A stretch of 64,000 nucleotides of DNA, from positions 62,001-126,000 of the forward strand of contig JAUHZO010000009.1 in NCBI GenBank assembly GCA_030425925.1, written 5' to 3'. This document shows, one piece after another, positions 2,660 to 62,038 of the stretch. Position 1 is the first letter of the stretch; each line of letters opens with the position of its first letter. The notes under the pieces are model-generated. The model made no database searches. It was not told the origin of the DNA and was given only the letters and a program-made list of their open reading frames with translations. The stretch is from Alphaproteobacteria bacterium (GTDB taxonomy: Bacteria > Pseudomonadota > Alphaproteobacteria > Rhodobacterales > Rhodobacteraceae). The translations under genes were made by a program, and so were the position numbers.

Positions 2660-3689
2660 GCCGGTCCTTTGCATCTGCATCGCGGACGATCCGCCGCCGC
2701 GTCTTGATAAGGCGCTGGCCCGCGATGTGCCAGAGGCGGCCGCGCTGTCGCGCACCCGGCTGGCCCGGCTGATCGCCGAGGGGGCGGTCACCCGGGCCGG
2801 GCAGGTGCTGGACGATCCCAGGGCCCGCGTCGCCGCCGGGGACGAGATCACCATCACCCTGCCCGAAGCCGCAGAATATGACCTGCGCCCGCAGGACATC
2901 GCGCTGGACATCCGGTTCGAGGATGACGACCTGCTGGTGGTCAACAAGCCCGCCGGTCTGGTGGTGCATCCGGCCCCGGGCACACCCGACGGCACGCTGG
3001 TCAACGCGCTCCTGCATCATTTCGGCGGCAATCTTTCGGGGGTGGGCGGCGAAAAGCGCCCCGGCATCGTGCACCGCATCGACAAGGACACCAGCGGACT
3101 TCTGGTGGTGGCCAAGTCCGACCGCGCGCATCATGGCCTGGCGGACCAGTTTGCCGCCCACAGCGTGCGCCGCGCCTATCTTGCGCTGTGCCACGGCGTG
3201 CCCGACACCGCCGATCCGCGGCTTCTGGGCACCCGCGGCGTGCGCGCCGGGCCCGGCGGCGGCATCGTCATCACCAGCGGGCTGGCCCGGCACAAGACCG
3301 ACCGCCAGCGCCAGGCGGTCTATTTCGATGGCCAGGGCCGCCACGCCGTGACCCATGTGCGGGTGCGCGAGCGGTTCGGCACCCCGCCCTGCCTCGCCCT
3401 TGTGGAATGCCGTCTGGAAACCGGCCGCACCCACCAGATCCGCGTGCACATGGCCCATGCCGGACATGCGCTGATCGGCGACCCGGTCTATGGCGGGCGG
3501 CGCAGGCTCAGCGCCGCGGCTTTGGGGCCGGCCGCACACAGGGCGGCCCACCGCCTGGACCGGCAGGCGCTGCACGCGGCCGAGCTTGGCTTCGTGCACC
3601 CGGTCACCGGAGCCGACATGCTGTTCGAGGCCGACCTGCCGCGGGATCTGGCCGATCTGCTGGCGCAATTGCGCGGCCCCAGGGCCTGA
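2658..3689 (+). CDS. RluA-family rRNA pseudouridine synthase (RluD-like)
   Basis: 343 residues, expected to convert uridines to pseudouridine in 23S rRNA. An N-terminal S4 RNA-binding domain (about residues 15-80) precedes the catalytic domain with the signature HRIDKDTSGLLVVAK, whose aspartate is the nucleophile, and RTHQIRVHMAHAGHALIGDPVYGG near the C-terminus, matching the RluC/RluD group rather than RluA, which lacks S4. The start at 2658 overlaps the start of the divergent membrane protein; an in-frame start at 2583 would run through that gene and is unlikely. It lies directly upstream of rpoH, a frequent order in Rhodobacterales. Confidence 0.9.
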   Translation: MPVLCICIADDPPPRLDKALARDVPEAAALSRTRLARLIAEGAVTRAGQVLDDPRARVAAGDEITITLPEAAEYDLRPQDIALDIRFEDDDLLVVNKPAGLVVHPAPGTPDGTLVNALLHHFGGNLSGVGGEKRPGIVHRIDKDTSGLLVVAKSDRAHHGLADQFAAHSVRRAYLALCHGVPDTADPRLLGTRGVRAGPGGGIVITSGLARHKTDRQRQAVYFDGQGRHAVTHVRVRERFGTPPCLALVECRLETGRTHQIRVHMAHAGHALIGDPVYGGRRRLSAAALGPAAHRAAHRLDRQALHAAELGFVHPVTGADMLFEADLPRDLADLLAQLRGPRA

Positions 3690-3796
3690 CCAAAGGCCGC
3701 CGCAACACACATGACCTGTGCGTGATAGCGCTGACACAGGTCTTTCGCCGCCACCGCCAATGATTAACTTTCTGGCAAGCCTTGGGGCTTTACCGT

Positions 3797-3825
3797 CTTG
3801 AAACACAAGATCAGAGGCCCCATCT
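3797..3825 (+). promoter_or_regulatory. Heat-shock (sigma-32-type) promoter of rpoH
   Basis: CTTGAAA at 3797-3803, 14 bases, then CCCCATCT at 3818-3825 match the Escherichia coli sigma-32 consensus (CTTGAAA, 13-14 bases, CCCCATNT) at every specified position. The expected transcript start is about 3832, giving a leader of roughly 40 bases to the rpoH ATG at 3875. Because the downstream gene encodes sigma-32 itself, this implies positive autoregulation, as described for Caulobacter rpoH. Confidence 0.85.
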
Positions 3826-3874
3826 GGCATGTTAAGCCCCGTAACATAGGGGCTCCCAACGGAGGGAGTGTGAC

Positions 3875-4771
3875 ATGAGCAACTATGGCAATCTGCCGGC
3901 CCCGTCGCCCGAGGCGGGCCTGAGCCGTTATCTGCAGGAAATCCGCAAGTTCCCGCTGCTGGAGCCGGAAGAGGAATACATGCTGGCCAAGCGCTGGGTC
4001 GAGGATCAGGATGCCGAGGCCGCGCACAAGATGGTCACCTCGCACCTGCGCCTCGCCGCCAAGATCGCCATGGGCTATCGCGGCTACGGCCTGCCGCAGG
4101 CCGAGGTGATTTCCGAAGCCAATGTCGGCCTGATGCAGGCCGTCAAGCGGTTCGACCCGGAAAAGGGCTTTCGCCTCGCGACCTACGCCATGTGGTGGAT
4201 CCGCGCCTCGATCCAGGAATACATCCTGCGGTCCTGGTCGCTGGTCAAGCTGGGTACGACCAGCGCGCAGAAGAAGCTGTTCTTCAACCTGCGCAAGGCC
4301 AAATCGCGCATCGGCGCGCTGGAGGATGGCGATCTGCGCCCGGAACACGTGGAAAAGATCGCACACGACCTCGGCGTGACCGAGGACGAGGTGATCTCGA
4401 TGAACCGCCGCCTGTCGGGCGGCGATGCCTCGCTGAACGCCACCGTGGGCTCCGAAGGCGAAGGCACGATGCAATGGCAGGACTGGCTGGAGGACGAAGA
4501 CGCCGACCAGGCCGGCGATTACGCCGAGCGCAACGAACTGGAGGCGCGGCGCGAATTGCTGGCACAGGCGATGGACGTGCTGACCGACCGCGAAAAGGAC
4601 ATCCTGACCCAGCGCCGCCTGATGGATCAGGCGGTCACGCTGGAAGAGCTTTCGGGGCAGTACGACGTGTCGCGCGAACGCATCCGCCAGATCGAAGTGC
4701 GCGCGTTCGAGAAGCTGCAAAAGCGCATGCGCGACCTGGCGCGCGATCAGGGCATGCTGACATCGGCATGA
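3875..4771 (+). CDS. rpoH: RNA polymerase heat-shock sigma factor RpoH (sigma-32)
   Basis: 298-residue sigma-70-family factor directing transcription of chaperone and protease genes. Region 1.2/2 begins SRYLQEIRKFPLLEPEEEY; the region 2.3-2.4 hallmark is FRLATYAMWWIRASIQEYIL; the RpoH-specific box is recognisable as QKKLFFNLRKAK; region 4.2 ends with the helix-turn-helix SRERIRQIEVRAFEKL. The start is supported by GGAGGGAG 8 bases upstream. Length fits the family. The sigma-32-type promoter just upstream predicts that it activates itself. Alphaproteobacteria often hold two rpoH paralogues; which one this is cannot be decided here. Confidence 0.97.
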   Translation: MSNYGNLPAPSPEAGLSRYLQEIRKFPLLEPEEEYMLAKRWVEDQDAEAAHKMVTSHLRLAAKIAMGYRGYGLPQAEVISEANVGLMQAVKRFDPEKGFRLATYAMWWIRASIQEYILRSWSLVKLGTTSAQKKLFFNLRKAKSRIGALEDGDLRPEHVEKIAHDLGVTEDEVISMNRRLSGGDASLNATVGSEGEGTMQWQDWLEDEDADQAGDYAERNELEARRELLAQAMDVLTDREKDILTQRRLMDQAVTLEELSGQYDVSRERIRQIEVRAFEKLQKRMRDLARDQGMLTSA

Positions 4772-4855: not shown

Positions 4856-5620
4856 TCACGCCAGCATCTGCGCCAGATCCTCGATCTCGGCCCCGCCGGC
4901 CATCAGGCGACGGATGTCGTCGCCGGCCAGTTCTTCCTTGGTGCCCGCCCCGATCACCTCGCCCAGGCTGAGAAAGGTGAAGCGGTCGGCGATCAGTTTC
5001 GAGTGGATCTCGTTGTGGGTGATGAAGATGATGGCGATGTCGCCGCGCTCGCGCACCGTCTTGATGGTGCGCAGCACCTCCATCTGCTGCTTCTGCCCCA
5101 GGGCCGAGGTCGGCTCGTCCAGGATCAGCACCTTGGCCCCGAAATGGATCGCGCGGGCAATCGCCAGCGTCTGGCGCTGACCGCCCGACATGGTGCCCAC
5201 CGCCTGCCCCGGGTCCGAGATGTCGATGCCGATCTTCAGCATCTCGTCATGGGCAACCTTGTCCATCTCGTCCATCTTCAGCATCCCGAACATCCCCTTG
5301 AGCTCGCGCCCCATGAAGAAGTTGCGGGTCACGCTCATCAGCGGGTTGAGCGCGAGGTCCTGGTAGACCGTGCCGATCCCCGCCGCCGCCGCGTCGCGCG
5401 GCGTGCGGAAGGTCACCGGTTTTCCTTCGATGTAGATCTGGCCTTCGGTGGGCTGGTGCACGCCGGACAGCGTCTTGATCAGCGTGGACTTGCCCGCACC
5501 GTTGTCACCCAGAAGCGCGTGCACCTCGCCGGGCCAGACATCGAGGTCGACCCCGCTCAGCGCCGTGAAGGGGCCAAAGCGCTTTACCAGCTTTTCGACC
5601 CTGAGATACGGTTGTGCCAT
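4856..5620 (-). CDS. Sugar ABC transporter ATP-binding protein (CUT2/Frc-type)
   Basis: 254-residue ATPase energising a sugar importer at the inner membrane. Walker A is GDNGAGKST (about residues 37-45), the ABC signature MSGGQRQTLAIARAI, and Walker B VLILDEPTSALG; the switch histidine lies in IIFITHNE. It has a single ABC module, as in the FrcA fructose group, not the double module of RbsA or XylG. It is the third gene of an operon behind the binding protein and permease; its start lies three bases after the permease stop. No kinase or regulator is adjacent, so the sugar is unassigned. Confidence 0.9.
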   Translation of the reverse strand: MAQPYLRVEKLVKRFGPFTALSGVDLDVWPGEVHALLGDNGAGKSTLIKTLSGVHQPTEGQIYIEGKPVTFRTPRDAAAAGIGTVYQDLALNPLMSVTRNFFMGRELKGMFGMLKMDEMDKVAHDEMLKIGIDISDPGQAVGTMSGGQRQTLAIARAIHFGAKVLILDEPTSALGQKQQMEVLRTIKTVRERGDIAIIFITHNEIHSKLIADRFTFLSLGEVIGAGTKEELAGDDIRRLMAGGAEIEDLAQMLA

Positions 5621-5623
5621 GGC

Positions 5624-6748
5624 TCAGATCCCCCCCGTGATCCGCTTGCGGATGCGTTCGTTGGCGAACACCGCCGCCAGCAGCACCACGCCGACAAAGA
5701 CCCGGTAGAACGACCCGTCGATCCACGGGATGTAGAACACCGCGTTGGCCACCAGACCGAAGGTCACCGCGCCGAACACCACCCCGATGACCGAACCGAA
5801 TCCCCCCGTCATCAGCGTGCCGCCCACAACGGCGATGGCGATGGCTTCAAGCTCCTTGAGGTTGCCCTTGGCGGCATCGGCGGTGTTGGTGTCGAACACT
5901 TGGCAGGCCGCAAAGATCGTGGCGCAGAAGGCCGTGGTCATGAACAGGCCGATCTTGACCTGGTTCACCGGCACCCCGTTGGCGCGCGCCGCCTCCTTGT
6001 TGTCGCCGGTGGCAAAGATCCAGTTGCCGATCTGCGTGCGGCTGAGGATGAAATAGGCCAGCCCGGCGATGATGATCCACCACAAGAGCCGCGCATCGAA
6101 CCCGGTCACCAGCTGCTCGCCCGCGCGGCTGCCGCGGGTCACCGCGTTGCCGCCCAGCAGGAACCACAGATCATAGAACCAGCCGAACACCTCGCCGCCG
6201 AACAGATCGGCGAACCAGCTGGTTTCCTTGAAATCCGGCAGGCCGGAAATCTGCGTCGACTGGTTGATGAGGCGAAAGCACACCTCGGTCAGGCCGCGCA
6301 GGAAAAACAGGAAGGCCAGCGTCACGATAAAGCTCGACAGGCCCGACCGCACGACGATGGTGCCGATGATCCATCCGAACGTCAGCGTCATCGCCAGCGT
6401 GATCAGAAAGGCCGAAAGCGGCGTCGCCTCGCCCAGTCCGAACGGCAGGCCCCATTTCAGCATCATCGCCATGGACATGCCGGCAAAACCGATCATCGAC
6501 CCGATGGACAGGTCGAACTCGCCCGCGATCATCAGCAGGGCCGCGCCGGTGGCGATGATGCCGAACTGCGCGATGATCGCCATGTTGTTCTTGAGCCCGA
6601 GCGCGTTGAAGGCCTTGAAGTCCGACGCCAGGGTGATCGCCACGATCACCACGATCATGACGATGAAGGCCCCGGCCTCGGGTCGGCGCACCATGCGCAT
6701 CAAGGTGGATTCCTGTTTCAAGCGGTCGGCTTCGCTGCGCCCCGTCAT
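5624..6748 (-). CDS. Sugar ABC transporter permease (CUT2/Frc-type)
   Basis: 374-residue polytopic inner-membrane permease of the ribose/fructose (CUT2) family. The family motif GEFDLSIGSMIG occurs at about residue 75, and there are some eight to ten hydrophobic segments, beginning with one at residues 28-43 and ending near the C-terminal KRITGG. It pairs with the ATPase just downstream and the periplasmic binding protein upstream. A long extramembrane stretch around residues 150-200 fits the FrcC subfamily. A hairpin plus T-run sits between the binding-protein gene and this one and may lower its expression relative to the binding protein. Confidence 0.9.
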   Translation of the reverse strand: MTGRSEADRLKQESTLMRMVRRPEAGAFIVMIVVIVAITLASDFKAFNALGLKNNMAIIAQFGIIATGAALLMIAGEFDLSIGSMIGFAGMSMAMMLKWGLPFGLGEATPLSAFLITLAMTLTFGWIIGTIVVRSGLSSFIVTLAFLFFLRGLTEVCFRLINQSTQISGLPDFKETSWFADLFGGEVFGWFYDLWFLLGGNAVTRGSRAGEQLVTGFDARLLWWIIIAGLAYFILSRTQIGNWIFATGDNKEAARANGVPVNQVKIGLFMTTAFCATIFAACQVFDTNTADAAKGNLKELEAIAIAVVGGTLMTGGFGSVIGVVFGAVTFGLVANAVFYIPWIDGSFYRVFVGVVLLAAVFANERIRKRITGGI

Positions 6749-6784
6749 GAGCTCCCCCAGTGCTGTGTGTAGGATATGTATGGG

Positions 6785-6813
6785 AAAAGGGGACAGGCGG
6801 TGCCGCCTGCCCC
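6785..6813 (-). terminator. Intra-operon intrinsic terminator/attenuator after the binding-protein gene
   Basis: Reading the minus strand, a hairpin with stem CAGGCGG/CCGCCTG extended by four G:C pairs across a one-base bulge is followed directly by TTTT. It lies 26 bases past the binding-protein stop and 37 bases before the permease start. Partial termination here is a known way to make the binding protein in excess of the membrane parts. Confidence 0.6.
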
Positions 6814-6838
6814 CGAATGCTGCGGATCGGCCGCAGGA

Positions 6839-7756
6839 TTACCGGTCGATGCCGGCCAGCGCCTTGACGGCGGCCGCGTTGGTCTTGTCCACAAAGCCCG
6901 GGCCCGAGGGGATGTTCGCCCCGGGCAGCAGGCCTGCATGGTTGTTGTACAGGTGCAGGACGATGATCGGCATGTAGCCCTGCAGACGCTGCTGCTGGTC
7001 GATGGTGAACGAGGCGGTGCCCGCTTCGATCAGGTCCATCACACCCGGGCTGAGGTCGAAGCACGCCAGGTGGATCGACCCCACCAGACCCATCTCGTCC
7101 AGCGCCGAGGCGGCGGCTTCGCAGACATGCGGGCCAACGGCCAGCACGCCGTCGATGCTTTCATCGGCCTGCAGCGCGGCGGCGGTGCGGGTCTTGATCT
7201 GAGTGACGTCGTTGGACACGTCGATCTGGTTCAGATCGGCACCCATGGCGTCGAAATAGCCGGTGCAACGGTCGACCAGCGCGGTGTTGAACGCCTCCTG
7301 GTTGAGGCAGAGCCCCTTGGTCACACCCTCGGCCATCGCACGTTCGCCCGCGGCCTTGCCGGCGTCGTATTCCGGCTGGCCCACATGCATCAGCGCGCCG
7401 ACTTCCTTGGACGATTCGAGGCCCGAGTTCATGGTGACCACCGGGATACCCGCATCGACCGCGGCCTTGATGGCCCCGCCCAGCGCATCGGCGTCGGGCA
7501 GCGACACGACGATGCCGTCGGGCTGGGTGGCCGCGGCGGCTTCGATCAGCTTGGCCATGCCCGCCATGTCACCCGAGGGGTCGAAATTGTACTCGATCTC
7601 GGCTCCGACGGCAGCACCGGCGTCTTTCGCGCCCTTTTCCACCACCGGCCAGAACGGATCGGTGCCCTGGGTATGCGTGATCACGACATAGCGCTCGGCC
7701 ATGGCCGAACCGGCCAGCAGTGCCAGGCCCGCGGCCAGAGTTGCAACTCGCTTCAT
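6839..7756 (-). CDS. Sugar ABC transporter substrate-binding protein
   Basis: 305-residue periplasmic binding protein of the ribose-binding/Peripla_BP_4 type. A cleavable signal peptide (MKRVATLAAGLALLAGSAMA) precedes the mature start ERYVVITHTQGTDPFW. The mature chain has the two-lobed pattern with PDGIVVSLPDADAL and IPVVTMNSG in the first lobe, and three cysteines mid-chain (CLNQ, RCTG, HVCEA). It is the first gene of the importer operon and is divergent from the peroxidase/P450 operon across a 226-base intergenic region. The ligand is not predictable from sequence; fructose-type and related sugars are the nearest analogues. Confidence 0.9.
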   Translation of the reverse strand: MKRVATLAAGLALLAGSAMAERYVVITHTQGTDPFWPVVEKGAKDAGAAVGAEIEYNFDPSGDMAGMAKLIEAAAATQPDGIVVSLPDADALGGAIKAAVDAGIPVVTMNSGLESSKEVGALMHVGQPEYDAGKAAGERAMAEGVTKGLCLNQEAFNTALVDRCTGYFDAMGADLNQIDVSNDVTQIKTRTAAALQADESIDGVLAVGPHVCEAAASALDEMGLVGSIHLACFDLSPGVMDLIEAGTASFTIDQQQRLQGYMPIIVLHLYNNHAGLLPGANIPSGPGFVDKTNAAAVKALAGIDR

Positions 7757-7982
7757 TCTTTCCTCCCTGAAAGCTTGTTCGCGTTAACAGCCGCAGTGAA
7801 GCCATTTTGGCCCATCAAAGCAAGGCTCTTGCTGCCAAGGGGACAAACGCCGCTGCCAAAGGCCAACCCGCCACCACCTGTGAGGGAAATCACAGTCACA
7901 AAACTTACCCTTTGATAGATCAATTTTTGCGTGTACCCTTTCCGCAAGGTCAATTGCGCCCGTCAAAGTGATTGGAAATCCC

Positions 7983-8648
7983 ATGTCTAACATCGCCGGC
8001 AAGGCGTACGCGATGAACGTCGTCACGCCCTCCAACCCAAGGATCACCTGGATCAACCGTCTGCTGTTCATGGCCTCGCGCGGGCAGCCGTCGAACCTGT
8101 TCGGCCTCTTGGGGCTGTCGCTGATCCATTTTGCCCGCTGGGTCATCATCAAACCCGAGCAGTGGCCCGATCTTGGCCAGGGCAAGCAGACGGTGCAGAA
8201 CGATTACGTGCTGTTCTGCTCGAACTTCAACGGCACCTGGGACCAGTATATCGACGCCTTCTCGGACGGCATCCCCAACGGTCTGAACCTGTTCTGGTTC
8301 TCGGCCACCAAGTACCCGCTGTCGATCCCGGTCACGCCGTTCAAGCGCTACATCACCTACAACCAGATCGGCTGCGATTATTACTACAACGCCACCCCCG
8401 GCTCGGCCCAGCGCGACATCAAGACCTCGCTCAAGGTCTATGACGCGCTGCTGACGCTGCAAAAGGCCCATGCCGAGCAGACGCCCGAGGTCTTTGCCGA
8501 AACCTATCGCAAGACGCTGGGCCAGGTGCAGATCGGGCTGGGCGATCCCGGCTTTGGCCCGGTGGCCAGCCTCGACACCGAAAAGGCCGACCAGAACCGC
8601 CGGGACTATGTGCGCGACGCGCAGGCCCGGTTCAACGCGCAGCGCTGA
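7983..8648 (+). CDS. Unrecognised protein, first gene of the DyP/P450 operon
   Basis: 221 residues; I do not recognise the family. The chain is aromatic-rich (NDYVLFCSNFNGTWDQYI, LNLFWFSATKYPLSIPVTPF, GCDYYYNATPG), with one hydrophobic stretch near residues 40-57 (LFGLLGLSLIHFARWVII) that could be an amphipathic or membrane-associated helix. No signal peptide or metal motif is evident. I use the ATG at 7983; a GTG at 7968 would add five residues. It heads a tight same-strand run (gaps of 12, 18, 12 and 11 bases) with a second unknown, a DyP peroxidase, a P450 and a GST, so it probably serves the same pathway. Confidence 0.75.
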   Translation: MSNIAGKAYAMNVVTPSNPRITWINRLLFMASRGQPSNLFGLLGLSLIHFARWVIIKPEQWPDLGQGKQTVQNDYVLFCSNFNGTWDQYIDAFSDGIPNGLNLFWFSATKYPLSIPVTPFKRYITYNQIGCDYYYNATPGSAQRDIKTSLKVYDALLTLQKAHAEQTPEVFAETYRKTLGQVQIGLGDPGFGPVASLDTEKADQNRRDYVRDAQARFNAQR

Positions 8649-8660
8649 GGAGACAGACCC

Positions 8661-9680
8661 ATGCCCGATCTCGACTCCGGTCACATCTTCCTGACCACGC
8701 TGGCCCCGATCAAGGGCGCAGGACGTGGCGGCGGCCAGAAGACCTCGTACGAACAGAACATCCGCATCTCGCTGGCGCGGCTGCCCACGGCGTTGCAATC
8801 GCCGGCCACGCGGCAGACCGGCCTGAACAGCCCCTTTGCCCGCAACACGCGCAACCATCTGGCGCGGATGTTCGTGCTGAACGACACCGTCTTCAACGGC
8901 CGGGTCGGGGAAAACGCGCTGGCCGCCGCCATCAGCCGCAAGGACCCGATCAACCCCGAGCCGGTGGACCGCCTGAACGCCGCCTATCTGGTGTTCTGCG
9001 CCGATATCGACGCCGTCACCGAAGACGGCCAGCCCCTGCCCGCCAACCTGACCGCCGCGCAACAGCGCGCGGTGCGCGCCAGCTATGCCCGCAAGCTGTG
9101 GGACACCATGCAGCCCGAACTGCGCGAGATCTATTCCAACTGCGTGGGCTTTGACGATGTGCAGACCGCGGACGATTTCGCGCGCTATCTCGACCGCTGC
9201 CATGTCGAAACGACGATGCCGTTCCACGACTATTACCTGGAACTGCCGGAGTTCCACATCCTGCCGGTGCGCCCGCTGCTTCTGGCCGTGGCGATCCCCG
9301 CGCTGGTGGCGCTGGTCGCGCTGGTCTGCCGCATCCTGGGCATGATCGACCTGCCGCTGCTGGGCTGGAACAGCCTTGCCACCTTCCTGCTTGCCGGGGC
9401 CCTGGCCGCCATCGCCGCCGTGGCGTCGGTGAAATATGCCATCGCCAACGGCAACAAGCCGCTGGCACCGGGCAAGTATGACGACCTGCCCACGGTGCTC
9501 AAGGCGCTCTACATGCAGCAGCATTTTGCCGATTTCGTGGTCGAGCATCAGGGCTGCACGCCCGAGACGCTGCACGCGGCCTTCGGGGCCTTTCTGGACC
9601 GCACGCAGCCGCAGGACCGCAGCGCGCCCACCCAGGAGCCCGGGGTCATCGCCTCTGTGCCCATCCACGCCGCCCGCTAA
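8661..9680 (+). CDS. Unrecognised membrane-anchored protein of the DyP/P450 operon
   Basis: 339 residues, family not recognised. The N-terminal two thirds is soluble and basic-aromatic (TSYEQNIRISLARLP, RNTRNHLARMFVLND, KLWDTMQPELREIYSNC). Two adjacent membrane segments follow at about residues 208-228 and 240-260, then a soluble tail of about 75 residues (KYDDLPTVLKALYMQQHFADF). GAGGAGAC precedes the ATG. The hairpin-like double span would place the peroxidase and P450 step at the inner membrane, consistent with a lipid or hydrophobic substrate; that is inference. It lies 12 bases after the first gene and 18 before the peroxidase. Confidence 0.75.
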   Translation: MPDLDSGHIFLTTLAPIKGAGRGGGQKTSYEQNIRISLARLPTALQSPATRQTGLNSPFARNTRNHLARMFVLNDTVFNGRVGENALAAAISRKDPINPEPVDRLNAAYLVFCADIDAVTEDGQPLPANLTAAQQRAVRASYARKLWDTMQPELREIYSNCVGFDDVQTADDFARYLDRCHVETTMPFHDYYLELPEFHILPVRPLLLAVAIPALVALVALVCRILGMIDLPLLGWNSLATFLLAGALAAIAAVASVKYAIANGNKPLAPGKYDDLPTVLKALYMQQHFADFVVEHQGCTPETLHAAFGAFLDRTQPQDRSAPTQEPGVIASVPIHAAR

Positions 9681-9698
9681 GACACATTGGATTTCCAC

Positions 9699-11363
9699 AT
9701 GACCCGCACGCTCGATCTTGACGACATTCAGGGCAACGTGACCCGTGCCTATGGCCGCTTCGCCTTTCCCTTTGCCCGTTATTTCTTTCTCAACATCGCC
9801 GATCCGGACTCGGGCCGCCGCTTTGTCGACCTGGTGCGCCACGAGGTGACCACGGCGCAGCGCTGGACCGCCGAATCCAAGCCGAAATGCACGCTCAACA
9901 TCGGGTTCACCTTCTATGGCCTGCTCAAGCTGGGGCTGTCCTCGAAGACGCTGCAGGAGATGCCGCAGGAATTCATCGAGGGCATGAAGAACCGCGCCTT
10001 CGTGCTGGGCGACCGCGACACCGCCAGGACGGCGGATGACGACACCGGCTGGTGCGACCACTGGGACCCGATCTGGCGCAACAACCGCTGCGGGCAGATC
10101 GACACGCCGCAGAACGTGCATATCTGGATTTCGCTCAACGCCCAGCTCAAGGCCGAAGGCACGGCCGAGCCCGACGACGCGCTGGAGGAAAAGACCCGCC
10201 GCCTGCGCGAGATGTGCAAGACCGCCGGCGGCGTGTCCATCCTCGACGGGATCGGGCGCAACGGCGAGGCCGACTACCAGGCGGCCTCGGCCGTGTTCGA
10301 CAAGATCGGCGGCATCCCGGTGCCCACGCCGAAGGAGCATTTCGGCTTTACCGACGGGATTTCGGACCCGGTCTTCGAAGGCCAGTACCCCGATGACGAG
10401 ATGGCCGACAAGGTGATCGGACGCGGCAAGCGGATGAACGGGGAATGGCAGCCCATCGCCACCGGCGAATTCATCCTTGGCCATCCCGACGAAAGCCAGG
10501 AACTGCCCCCCACCCCGCGCCCGGTGGAGTTCATGCACAACGGCACCTTCATGGCCTTCCGCAAGCTGCACGAAAACGTCGCCACCTTCGACGCGGTGGT
10601 GAAGGAAGAGGCCGAACGCTATGCCCGGGTGATGGGCCTGGACGACATGGACGAGGCCGTCGAGACGATCCGCGCCAAGATGTGCGGCCGCTGGTCGGAC
10701 GGCGTGCCGCTGGCCAAGGTGCCAACCTATGCCGAGTGGCGCAGCTTCCGGCGCGACAACCACTTCGAGGACAAGAACCCGCTGGTGGCGCTGAAGGCAC
10801 AGGTGGATTACATCCGCTCGCGCCATGCGTCGGATTTCCGCTATGCCGACGACATGCCCGGGTTCAAATGCCCCGGCGGCGCGCATGTGCGGCGGGTGAA
10901 CACGCGCGACTATCTCGATCCGCTGAACACCGGCGGGGTGGATGCCGCCGGCAATCCCCATCCCAACGACAAGGCCACCAGCCAGCTGAACAAGCGCCGC
11001 CGCATCCTGCGCCGCGGCCTGCCCTACGGGCCGCACAATTTCGAACACAAGGATGACGACACCGAACAGGGCGTGGCGATGATGATGATCGGCGCCTCGC
11101 TCTTCCGGCAGTTCGAGTTCGTCCAGCAGCAATGGATCCAGTACGGGCTGGATTTCCACCAGGGCAACAACACCTGCCCGATGCTGGGCGACCACACCCA
11201 CCACACGCGCTTTACCATCCCCGCCGACCCGCGCTCGGGCAAGCCGCCCTACGTGATGTCGAAGTTGAAGACCTTCGTGGAATGCCGCGGCGGCGACTAT
11301 TTCTTCATCCCCTCCCTGACCGGCCTGCGCATGATCGCGATGGGCATTGTCGACCCGACATAA
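9699..11363 (+). CDS. DyP-type haem peroxidase, long form
   Basis: 554 residues, a dye-decolourising-peroxidase-superfamily haem enzyme. The opening LDLDDIQGNVTRAYGRF and NIGFTFYGLLKLGL match the family; the GxxDG box is GFTDG at residues 216-220 with the catalytic aspartate at 219; the proximal haem ligand is His396 in CPGGAHVRRVNTRDY; the end GGDYFFIPSLTGL is typical. At 554 residues it is longer than the common bacterial forms (about 300-450). There is no Tat or Sec signal, so it is probably cytosolic. I start at the ATG at 9699; a TTG at 9687 is possible. The proposed role, with the neighbouring P450, is peroxide-dependent oxidation. Confidence 0.9.
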   Translation: MTRTLDLDDIQGNVTRAYGRFAFPFARYFFLNIADPDSGRRFVDLVRHEVTTAQRWTAESKPKCTLNIGFTFYGLLKLGLSSKTLQEMPQEFIEGMKNRAFVLGDRDTARTADDDTGWCDHWDPIWRNNRCGQIDTPQNVHIWISLNAQLKAEGTAEPDDALEEKTRRLREMCKTAGGVSILDGIGRNGEADYQAASAVFDKIGGIPVPTPKEHFGFTDGISDPVFEGQYPDDEMADKVIGRGKRMNGEWQPIATGEFILGHPDESQELPPTPRPVEFMHNGTFMAFRKLHENVATFDAVVKEEAERYARVMGLDDMDEAVETIRAKMCGRWSDGVPLAKVPTYAEWRSFRRDNHFEDKNPLVALKAQVDYIRSRHASDFRYADDMPGFKCPGGAHVRRVNTRDYLDPLNTGGVDAAGNPHPNDKATSQLNKRRRILRRGLPYGPHNFEHKDDDTEQGVAMMMIGASLFRQFEFVQQQWIQYGLDFHQGNNTCPMLGDHTHHTRFTIPADPRSGKPPYVMSKLKTFVECRGGDYFFIPSLTGLRMIAMGIVDPT

Positions 11364-11375
11364 GGAGAGACGGCC

Positions 11376-12731
11376 ATGTCTGCCATCCTCGCCGCGCTGA
11401 CCACCGTCTGGCGCGTCCTGCAGGTCTGGGCCGAAGGGCTCTGGTCGCTTGTCTCGCTGCTGGGCATCGGGCTGCGGGCGCTGGTCACGGGCGGCGGCGC
11501 AGCCAGCCTCGCCGCGGCCTTTGCCGCGCCCGCCACCCAGCGCAAGGCGCTTTCGGTGCTGCGGGCGGTCTGGCCCAACCTGCGGCTGGGCCGGTCCTTC
11601 GTGAAGGCCTATGACAATTCCGGAACCATCATCGTTACACGGCATAACGATTGCCTCGACGTGCTGAACCGCGATGCCGATTTCGAAGTGGTCTACGGCC
11701 CGCGGATGCAGAAGCTGACCGAGGGGCGCAACTTCTTTCTCGGGATGCAGCCGGGCTGGGACTATACCCGCGACACCTCGGCCATGCGGCTGGCGATGCG
11801 CACCACCGACGTGGCCGACCTCATCCTGCCCCGGGCGCAGGCGCTGGCCGACGACATCGTGGCGCGGTCCGGCGGCCGGATCGACCTGCCGCCGCAACTG
11901 GCCCTGCAGGTGCCCTGGGACATGACCCGGCACTATTTCGGCACCCCCGGCCCCGATGCCGCCACCATGCAGGACTGGACCACGACGCTGTTCTGGTACC
12001 TGTTCGAGGATCTGGGCGCCGATCCGGAGTTCGACGCCAAGGCCATGCACCAGGCGGCGCAGTTCCGCGCCTATCTCGACGGGGTGATCGCCGAACGTCA
12101 CGCCGCGCCCACCGACGCGCCGGATCTGGTCAACCGCTGCCTGGCTCTGCAGGCGGCGGGCACGCCGGGGATGGACGATACCGGCATCCGCAACAACATC
12201 CTGGGTCTGCAGATCGGGGCCATCCCGACGATCTCCAAGGCGGCCTGCCTGGCGCTGGACGAGCTGCTGAACCGTCCCGACGCGCTGCGCGGCGCGATGC
12301 AGGCGGCGCGCTCGGACGACGACGCCAGGCTGGCGCAATACATCTGGGAGGCGCTGCGCTTCAACCCGCACAACCCGGTGGTCTATCGCCGGGCCACGCG
12401 CGACACCGTGGTAGGCCGGTCGACCCTGCGCCAACAGACGGTGCGCCAGGGCGACATGGTCTTTGCCGCCACGCTGTCGGCCATGTTCGATCCGCTTGCC
12501 ATCCCCCACCCGGGGCGCTTCTGCATCGACCGCCCGTGGGAAACCTACATCATCTGGGGCTACGGGATGCACACCTGTTTTGGCGCGGCGATCAACCGCG
12601 TGGTGATCCCCGCCATCCTCAAGCCGCTCCTGCGCCAGAAGACCCTGCGCCGCGCGCCCGGTGCCGCGGGGCAGATCGACACCGGCGGCACGCCGCATCC
12701 GCAGCATTTCCACCTGGAATTCGACACCTGA
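11376..12731 (+). CDS. Cytochrome P450 with atypical I-helix
   Basis: 451-residue P450. The haem thiolate is Cys401 in YGMHTCFGAAIN, and the K-helix ExxR is E325-A-L-R328. The I-helix segment reads GLQIGAIPTISK, with GAIPT at residues 281-285 instead of the usual acidic-residue/threonine pair that protonates bound oxygen. Such replacement is typical of P450s that use peroxides or rearrange hydroperoxides. A hydrophobic N-terminal stretch (residues 3-35) could be a membrane anchor. No ferredoxin or reductase gene is in the operon. It lies 12 bases after the peroxidase gene. The long frame on the opposite strand here is a GC artefact. Confidence 0.92.
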   Translation: MSAILAALTTVWRVLQVWAEGLWSLVSLLGIGLRALVTGGGAASLAAAFAAPATQRKALSVLRAVWPNLRLGRSFVKAYDNSGTIIVTRHNDCLDVLNRDADFEVVYGPRMQKLTEGRNFFLGMQPGWDYTRDTSAMRLAMRTTDVADLILPRAQALADDIVARSGGRIDLPPQLALQVPWDMTRHYFGTPGPDAATMQDWTTTLFWYLFEDLGADPEFDAKAMHQAAQFRAYLDGVIAERHAAPTDAPDLVNRCLALQAAGTPGMDDTGIRNNILGLQIGAIPTISKAACLALDELLNRPDALRGAMQAARSDDDARLAQYIWEALRFNPHNPVVYRRATRDTVVGRSTLRQQTVRQGDMVFAATLSAMFDPLAIPHPGRFCIDRPWETYIIWGYGMHTCFGAAINRVVIPAILKPLLRQKTLRRAPGAAGQIDTGGTPHPQHFHLEFDT

Positions 12732-12742
12732 AGGAGCGTGCC

Positions 12743-13510
12743 ATGACCGACCGGACCCTTCTCATCACGCTCCGCCCGTCCTCGGACGTGGATCTGGGCC
12801 GCTGGCTGTTGCAGCATTACGGTGTGCCCTATACCGAACGCCCTCATGCGCCGATCTTTCACGTTCTGGCGCTGAAAGCCTGGGGCGAAGGCAAGGACGA
12901 CTATCCCCTGCTGGTCCGCAACGGCAACAGGTTCCCCACGGTGGAAAAGATCGTCGCCCTGCTGGAGCCCGACGCCGCCCCCGACCGGCGGCTCCTGCCC
13001 GACGACGGCAGTGCGGCGCGCAAGGAAGTGGACGCGCTGCAGCATTACGCCCGCTACGACGTCGGCACCGGTGTGGTGAACTGGTCCTATTTCCACCTGC
13101 TGCAGCACAAGGCCGCGGTCTGGCCCTCGATCACCACCGGCGTGCCGTGGTACGAAAAGGCGTTCTGCCATGTGGGGTTCCCGGTCATCCGGTCGCTGAT
13201 GTACAAGGGGCTGGCGCTGGACCGGCAGGTGGCGGACAAGGCGCTGGACGACGTGCGGCACGGCTTTGACCGGATCGACGCGCTGCTTGCGGACGGGCGG
13301 CGCTATCTGGTGGGCGACCGGCTGAGCCTGGCCGACCTGGCCACCGCCGCCTCATTCGGACCGATGATCCTGGCGCAGGGCTATCAGGGCTTTCTGCCCA
13401 ACCAGGCCGCCTGCCCGCCTTTCATGCAGACCGTCTATCAGGAGTTGCGCACCCGGCCCGCGGGGCTGTTCGTGCAGCGCCTCTACGACACCCACCGCCC
13501 AGGCGTCTGA
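12743..13510 (+). CDS. Glutathione S-transferase-like protein
   Basis: 255 residues with a thioredoxin-like N-terminal domain (LLITLRPSSDVDLGRWLLQHYGVPYTERPH, the VPY stretch preceding the cis-proline-like region NRFPTVEKIVALL) and an all-helical C-terminal domain ending in GDRLSLADLATAAS, the usual GST N-capping box. AAGGAG lies 7 bases before the ATG at 12743. It is the last gene of the five-gene operon. A role in conjugating or isomerising the product of the peroxidase/P450 pair is plausible by analogy with GST-type isomerases of eicosanoid pathways, but that is inference. Confidence 0.82.
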   Translation: MTDRTLLITLRPSSDVDLGRWLLQHYGVPYTERPHAPIFHVLALKAWGEGKDDYPLLVRNGNRFPTVEKIVALLEPDAAPDRRLLPDDGSAARKEVDALQHYARYDVGTGVVNWSYFHLLQHKAAVWPSITTGVPWYEKAFCHVGFPVIRSLMYKGLALDRQVADKALDDVRHGFDRIDALLADGRRYLVGDRLSLADLATAASFGPMILAQGYQGFLPNQAACPPFMQTVYQELRTRPAGLFVQRLYDTHRPGV

Positions 13511-61558: not shown

Positions 61559-62038
61559 ATGACCCGCATCGCGCATATCGAACTGGACGACGCCAACCTG
61601 CCGCCTCCGACGCCGGAGATCGAGCAGGAGCGGCAGGTCGCGATGTTCGATCTGATGGAAGAGAACCTGTTCCGCCTGCCCGCCCGCGACGACCGCCCGG
61701 TGCCGCCGGGCCCCTACCATGTGGGCCTTTCGATCCGTGACAAGCGGCTGGTCTTTGACGTGTCCACCACCAGCCATGAAAAGGCGGTGGAGTTCCACCT
61801 GTCGCTGTCGCCGTTCCGGCAGGTGGTCAAGGACTACTTCCAGATCTGCAAAAGCTATTTCGACGCGGTCAAGACGCTGCCGCCCAGCCAGATCGAGACC
61901 ATCGACATGGCCCGCCGCGGCATTCACAACGAAGGCGCGCGCATCCTTCAGGAGCGGCTGGAGGGCAAGGCCGAGGTGGACGATGCCACCGCCCGCCGTC
62001 TCTTCACGCTGATCTGCGTGCTGCATTTCGGGGGCTGA
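61559..62038 (+). CDS. UPF0262 family protein
   Basis: 159 residues. IAHIELDDANLPPPTPEIEQERQVAMFDL, the central LVFDVSTTSHEKAVEFHLSLSPFRQVVKDYF and the end RRLFTLICVLH are diagnostic for UPF0262, an alphaproteobacterial family of unknown function normally encoded between hisD and the low-molecular-weight phosphatase. Its stop precedes the phosphatase GTG by one base, so the two are coupled. Confidence 0.9.
   Translation: MTRIAHIELDDANLPPPTPEIEQERQVAMFDLMEENLFRLPARDDRPVPPGPYHVGLSIRDKRLVFDVSTTSHEKAVEFHLSLSPFRQVVKDYFQICKSYFDAVKTLPPSQIETIDMARRGIHNEGARILQERLEGKAEVDDATARRLFTLICVLHFGG

Follow-up and report, generated by a model that had tools for sequence, protein, structure and literature searches.

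What is the function of an operon that joins a DyP-type haem peroxidase, a cytochrome P450 and a GST-like protein to two proteins of no named family? Such an operon is present in a Rhodobacteraceae contig (JAUHZO010000009.1), of which a stretch of 64,000 nucleotides (positions 62,001 to 126,000; hereafter the window) was analysed. A sequence-only reading had described five tightly spaced genes separated by 11-18 bases, with a double membrane span in one of two unrecognised proteins, and had proposed a membrane-associated pathway of lipid or terpenoid oxidation. Our analysis confirmed positions, strand and spacing: the five genes occupy 7983-13510 on one strand (+), with intergenic gaps of 12, 18, 12 and 11 bases.

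7983..8648, + strand: ORF1, 221 aa, soluble; no Pfam or NCBIfam family
8661..9680, + strand: ORF2, 339 aa, ORF1 homologue into which a transmembrane hairpin is inserted; no Pfam or NCBIfam match
9699..11363, + strand: DyP-type haem peroxidase, 554 aa; DyP_N 2.7e-6, Dyp_perox_fam 3e-21 (below that model's cut-off)
11376..12731, + strand: cytochrome P450, 451 aa; p450 2.4e-11
12743..13510, + strand: GST-like protein, 255 aa; GST_C PF00043 1.3e-6

The two unknown proteins were indeed without a family match, and the double membrane span was recovered in ORF2 as hydrophobic spans at residues 205-223 and 233-251. Upstream of the operon, at 4856-7756 (-), lies a divergent set of genes for a sugar-type ABC transporter, named by eye as binding protein, permease and ATPase; the first two were not found beside the operon relatives.

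An ORF1-family profile scan of one genome per species (84,980 species) gave 307 relatives, and the best 80 were kept with their flanks. Of these loci, 74 extend 3 kb or more beyond ORF1, and every one of them has ORF1, ORF2 and DyP in the same order. Among the 70 loci with 1.6 kb after DyP, the P450 was added in 54 and the GST in 27. The median gaps within the operon were 9-14 bases across relatives, and all-against-all clustering of the 80 loci revealed no other conserved neighbour, the next cluster reaching only 9/80. On these counts, the conserved unit is ORF1-ORF2-DyP, usually with the P450, while the GST belongs to it mainly in Rhodobacteraceae. Thus, co-occurrence held for the first three genes and largely for the P450 but not for the GST, and separate conserved neighbours of the peroxidase and the P450 were not seen among the 80 loci. 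The view of the genes as one pathway unit is borne out by this order and by the fusions of parts described below. The operon does lie beside oxyR/katG in the window, as had been pointed out; however, katG was found within 10 kb in only 2/80 relatives and a close oxyR in 1/80. Since no other neighbour is conserved, this adjacency is regarded as coincidental, and KatG/OxyR were rejected as part of the system.

The GST-like protein had been compared with the isomerisation step of eukaryotic oxylipin synthesis, but a core role of this kind found no support in the relatives. It carries a GST C-terminal domain (PF00043, 1.3e-6), GST_N was matched only at E 0.23, and no conserved ES motif was visible by eye in the alignment. 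With no recognisable glutathione motif and a presence in 27/70 loci, mostly Rhodobacteraceae, it is read as accessory.

ORF1 and ORF2 are homologues within one unnamed family, ORF2 being an ORF1-type protein with an inserted hairpin. Profile-profile comparison of the two gave a probability of 99.6 (E 6e-24), with an ORF1-side profile that contains bridging sequences from Acidobacteriota and locus L018; the Acidobacteriota bridging sequence matched an ORF1-only profile and the ORF2 profile, each separately. The predicted model of ORF2 was good (pLDDT 82), with helices at 203-225 and 238-264, while that of ORF1 was poor (pLDDT 63), so that the structure prediction suggested for both unknowns succeeded for one of them. 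At least one strong hydrophobic span was present in the hairpin region of 73/73 full-length ORF2 copies, and hydrophobic spans also lie between the ORF1-type domains of fused relatives, in agreement with the earlier proposal of membrane association; we propose that the hairpin (residues about 203-264) is a membrane anchor. In locus L146 (6247-8361), some six or seven hydrophobic spans take the place of the hairpin between two ORF1-type domains.

Foldseek gave no significant match with the ORF1 and ORF2 models. The head of ORF2 (residues 5-190) showed modest matches to many dimeric alpha+beta-barrel (DABB)/ferredoxin-like chains (Z 4-6.3), and the VIA matches of ORF1, from its poor model, were mostly helical noise with a few ferredoxin-like chains. 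EthD, a dimeric alpha+beta-barrel protein, accompanies a P450 operon, and EthD-like proteins may share the fold of the ORF1/ORF2 head; they differ in that the fold match is weak (Z 4-6) and ORF1 and ORF2 have no Pfam sequence match. The possibility that the ORF1 family is a stray DyP half was rejected, as the profile comparison gave nothing. The family stood beside DyP, or was fused to it, in every testable locus, close and distant; it also stands beside DyP in Granulicella, Sinorhizobium, Rhodococcus, Terrarubrum and Gloeothece plasmids.

The haem site of the peroxidase is intact. The catalytic Asp (GxxDG), the proximal His and the distal Arg of the DyP-type superfamily were kept in 77/77 relatives, with the second Gly of the GxxDG motif changed to Ala in 17 of 77. 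Together with the Pfam/NCBIfam matches, these residues place the enzyme in DyP, and the statement that its family differs from that of the eukaryotic oxylipin peroxidases was therefore correct. DyP enzymes are known for the oxidation of dyes and lignin models; to our knowledge, they are not known to oxidise acyl chains, and we know of no natural substrate for most bacterial DyP peroxidases. Stand-alone or encapsulin-cargo bacterial DyPs belong to the same superfamily with the same intact Asp, His and Arg. However, the operon DyP comes with ORF1-family proteins as obligate neighbours and, in most cases, with another haem enzyme, and no encapsulin occurred among the conserved neighbours of the 80 loci.

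The P450 keeps its haem Cys signature and ExxR in 57/57 close relatives. Its I-helix reads G[AL][IV]PT[ILT][SN] in all 57 (GAIPTIS in the window copy), so that the acid of the acid-alcohol pair typical of monooxygenases is replaced by Pro and the Thr is retained. Most distant P450s of the family also lack the acid, those of L019 and L022 keep Asp-Thr, and the one at L170 resembles an ordinary P450. Furthermore, clustering of the 80 loci showed no ferredoxin or reductase gene as a conserved neighbour. The lost acid and the lack of a conserved partner gene nearby fit, but do not prove, a peroxide or hydroperoxide route; some reductase-fed P450s (CYP7/CYP39) also lack the I-helix acid. In a comparison aimed at a relationship to CYP74, the best 60 of 638 PDB sequence matches were ordinary bacterial and fungal soluble P450s. 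CYP152 peroxygenases are likewise bacterial, with an altered acid-alcohol pair and a peroxide route of the kind proposed here, but they carry Arg-Pro in place of the pair (PMC5818669). The operon P450 has Pro-Thr and no carboxylate-binding Arg at that place, and its assignment to CYP152 was rejected.

In a maximum-likelihood tree of DyP with 77 rows, 20 were counted as lacking the P450, a few of them being contigs that end soon after DyP. Its absence required 11 changes, at least 10 of them forced by well-supported branches. The P450 was thus lost some ten times from loci that kept ORF1-ORF2-DyP, which makes its step accessory to the DyP core and dispensable. Genomes without it beside the module mostly lacked that P450 subfamily anywhere; it was found elsewhere in the genome of L082 and in three Mesorhizobium genomes (those of L086, L095 and L106), where it is held in a separate frame of 1442-1443 aa. 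Nisaea and a Thiotrichaceae genome were placed among Rhodobacteraceae on the same tree, suggesting horizontal transfer.

Distant relatives were sought by profile in 398 Pseudomonadota genomes; the ORF1 family was present in 27 genomes (20/213 genera), and 25 loci were fetched. DyP was beside or fused to an ORF1-family member in 25/25, a P450 was beside or fused in 13/25 and a catalase-like protein was present in 7/25; four long fusions share a genus, as do L161 and L162, and these counts are therefore not fully independent. In other lineages, the P450 position is often taken by a catalase-like protein. Six genomes encode P450, ORF1-like, hairpin, ORF1-like and DyP parts in one frame of 1408-1535 aa, with hydrophobic spans separating the two ORF1-type regions; in some of these frames, the first region gave a weak profile match or none. 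Shorter fusions join DyP to the P450 (L023, 1007 aa) or to a catalase-like domain (L155, 900 aa), and a 1587-aa frame at L164 (392-5155) combines DyP with an ORF1-type domain and ends in a C-terminus that resembles a GDSL lipase. Directly upstream of long fusions are genes for proteins of about 590 aa (L141, 2958-4733, and like genes at L142-L144); that of L141, the sole one scanned, has adenylate-cyclase and TPR domains. At L165, a Streptomyces plasmid, a gene of the sodium/bile-acid symporter family (7104-8252) overlaps the 3' end of the DyP frame.

The catalase-like partners carry Ala-His, Gln-His or Asn at the distal pair, with Asn aligned to the distal His in L150, L154 and L155. The last of these loci (3179-4420 and 8688-11390) has both the DyP-catalase-like fusion and a second catalase-like gene about 4 kb apart, each with Asn at this position. 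A PDB sequence search with two of the partners returned nothing or a marginal catalase. The coral catalase-related allene oxide synthase (cAOS) has a distal Thr-His pair (PMC5617202), and on this residue basis the partners were rejected as catalase-related AOS.

Lipid genes near the module in distant relatives suggest a lipid substrate. L161 and L162 have the order ORF1F-ORF1F-DyP-patatin-P450-FadL (Pfam shown for L161), L019 has ORF1F-DyP-P450-LCAT-like, and a Sphingomonas plasmid has catalase-ORF1F-DyP-thioesterase-patatin-TolC-adaptor-ABC permease. At L154, a GMC oxidoreductase precedes the module and an esterase follows it, and a divergent patatin lies beside the DyP-P450 fusion of L023. 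Patatins numbered 1-11 per genome in 12 carriers, and on these numbers their adjacency to the module in several unrelated lineages would not be expected by chance. Beside the operon of the window's own clade, no lipase was conserved. A lipoxygenase search of the own genome found none, and its control also found none anywhere. Three own-clade loci have a patatin (GTSTG) some 1.6 kb downstream, encoded on the opposite strand in an apparently separate island (L039, 14794-18448; L056, 14776-18162; L091, 16390-17556), which in L039 and L056 also encodes a protein of 511-517 aa and a short one that may bind nucleotides; this island may be a defence-type cassette. A lipid substrate is therefore supported by context in relatives: of the proposed lipid or terpenoid oxidation, the lipid half gained backing from distant relatives, where genes for phospholipase, FadL and thioesterase are neighbours, and nothing favoured a terpenoid over a lipid.

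Taken together, we read the operon as a membrane-bound two-haem lipid-oxidation module, with a probability of about 0.45. ORF2 would anchor the complex through its hairpin, and ORF1 and the ORF2 head would dock DyP, and the P450 where present, at the membrane surface. With peroxide as its driver, DyP would oxidise a membrane-derived acyl chain, released in relatives by the partner phospholipase, or act on its hydroperoxide. The P450, without its proton-relay acid or a redox partner nearby, could then work on the same lipid by a peroxide route as a hydroperoxide isomerase or peroxygenase, a place that the catalase-like haem protein fills in other lineages, and the GST-like protein may be a lineage-specific last step or carrier. 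The order of the steps, their chemistry and the docking role of ORF1 and ORF2 are what we infer. Several points run against lipid oxidation: the Thr of the pair is kept, the L019 and L022 P450s keep the whole pair, the P450 is dispensable, the ORF1 model is poor and the ORF2 fold matches are modest. In a bolder form, which we consider distinctly doubtful, DyP would be a fatty-acid (di)oxygenase. The family would then be bacterial oxylipin synthases of an origin separate from COX and lipoxygenase, and would have recruited either P450s or catalase-like proteins to convert the hydroperoxide, in some cases within a single protein of 1400-1500 residues.

Unlikely, if still a serious contender, is that DyP with the P450 or catalase-like protein detoxifies peroxide or lipid hydroperoxides at the membrane, with no product for export or signalling. 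DyP, catalase-like and GST-like proteins are all classical peroxide handlers, and the DyP core stays where the P450 was lost. The window operon also adjoins oxyR/katG, an adjacency that is not conserved. However, the distal His is replaced by Asn in three of the catalase-like partners (L150, L154 and L155), and phospholipases, FadL and ABC/TolC exporters suggest the supply and export of a product. We regard as improbable that the operon tailors a non-lipid, exported specialised metabolite, in which case the P450 would be a conventional monooxygenase that receives its electrons from host ferredoxins. Such a role agrees with the P450 profile, whose nearest relatives among the best 60 of 638 PDB matches were common bacterial hydroxylases, for example CYP113A1, and with the SnoaL-like cyclase and exporter genes beside L025. 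Against it, the neighbours scanned included no scaffold-building gene (PKS, NRPS or terpene synthase), all 57 close P450 relatives lack the I-helix acid, and lipid genes recur in unrelated lineages. Finally, each enzyme family is common by itself, but the order in 74/74, the fusions in several lineages and the absence of any other conserved neighbour leave adjacency by chance with a negligible probability, and it was rejected.

The proposed lipid-oxidation module finds its closest functional analogues in fungal DOX-CYP and coral AOS-LOX (PMC5617202, PMC10813956), and the oxylipin comparison drawn by the sequence-only reading appears reasonable; membership in either is precluded by the peroxidase, which is DyP. 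In fungal DOX-CYP, a self-sufficient P450 partner is fused to a haem dioxygenase, and a bacterial origin has been suggested for the P450 half (PMC13049297). DOX-CYP (linoleate diol, epoxy-alcohol and allene oxide synthases) and COX with prostacyclin or thromboxane synthase resemble the module in pairing a haem peroxidase-type enzyme with a P450, often fused, membrane-associated and without a redox partner nearby; the lipid context of the module in relatives adds to the likeness. However, DyP belongs to an unrelated family and stands in place of the COX-type peroxidase even where relatives fuse it to the P450, for which reason the module was rejected as a DOX-CYP; the module also has dedicated ORF1-family subunits, and its P450 often comes first in the fusions. 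The catalase-related AOS-LOX and HPL-LOX fusions of corals, together with catalase-related AOS in Acaryochloris, likewise couple or fuse a catalase-like haem protein to a presumed maker of oxidised lipid, and from lineage to lineage either such a protein or a P450 takes the partner's place. They differ in having a lipoxygenase where the module has DyP and in the distal Thr-His that its catalase-like partners lack.

Searches of the open-access literature turned up no account of DyP paired with, or fused to, a P450 or a catalase, which is no proof of novelty. A DyP clade with obligate partners, a second haem enzyme, fusions and lipase neighbours offers one testable answer to the question of DyP substrates, and the unnamed ORF1 family receives its first context, across Pseudomonadota, Acidobacteriota, Cyanobacteriota and Actinomycetota. 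If the reading is true, the module would be a counterpart of the systems by which animals and fungi make hormone-like oxidised fats, built with a different peroxidase family, and would add to COX/DOX-P450 and LOX-catalase a third way, independently evolved, of pairing haem enzymes.
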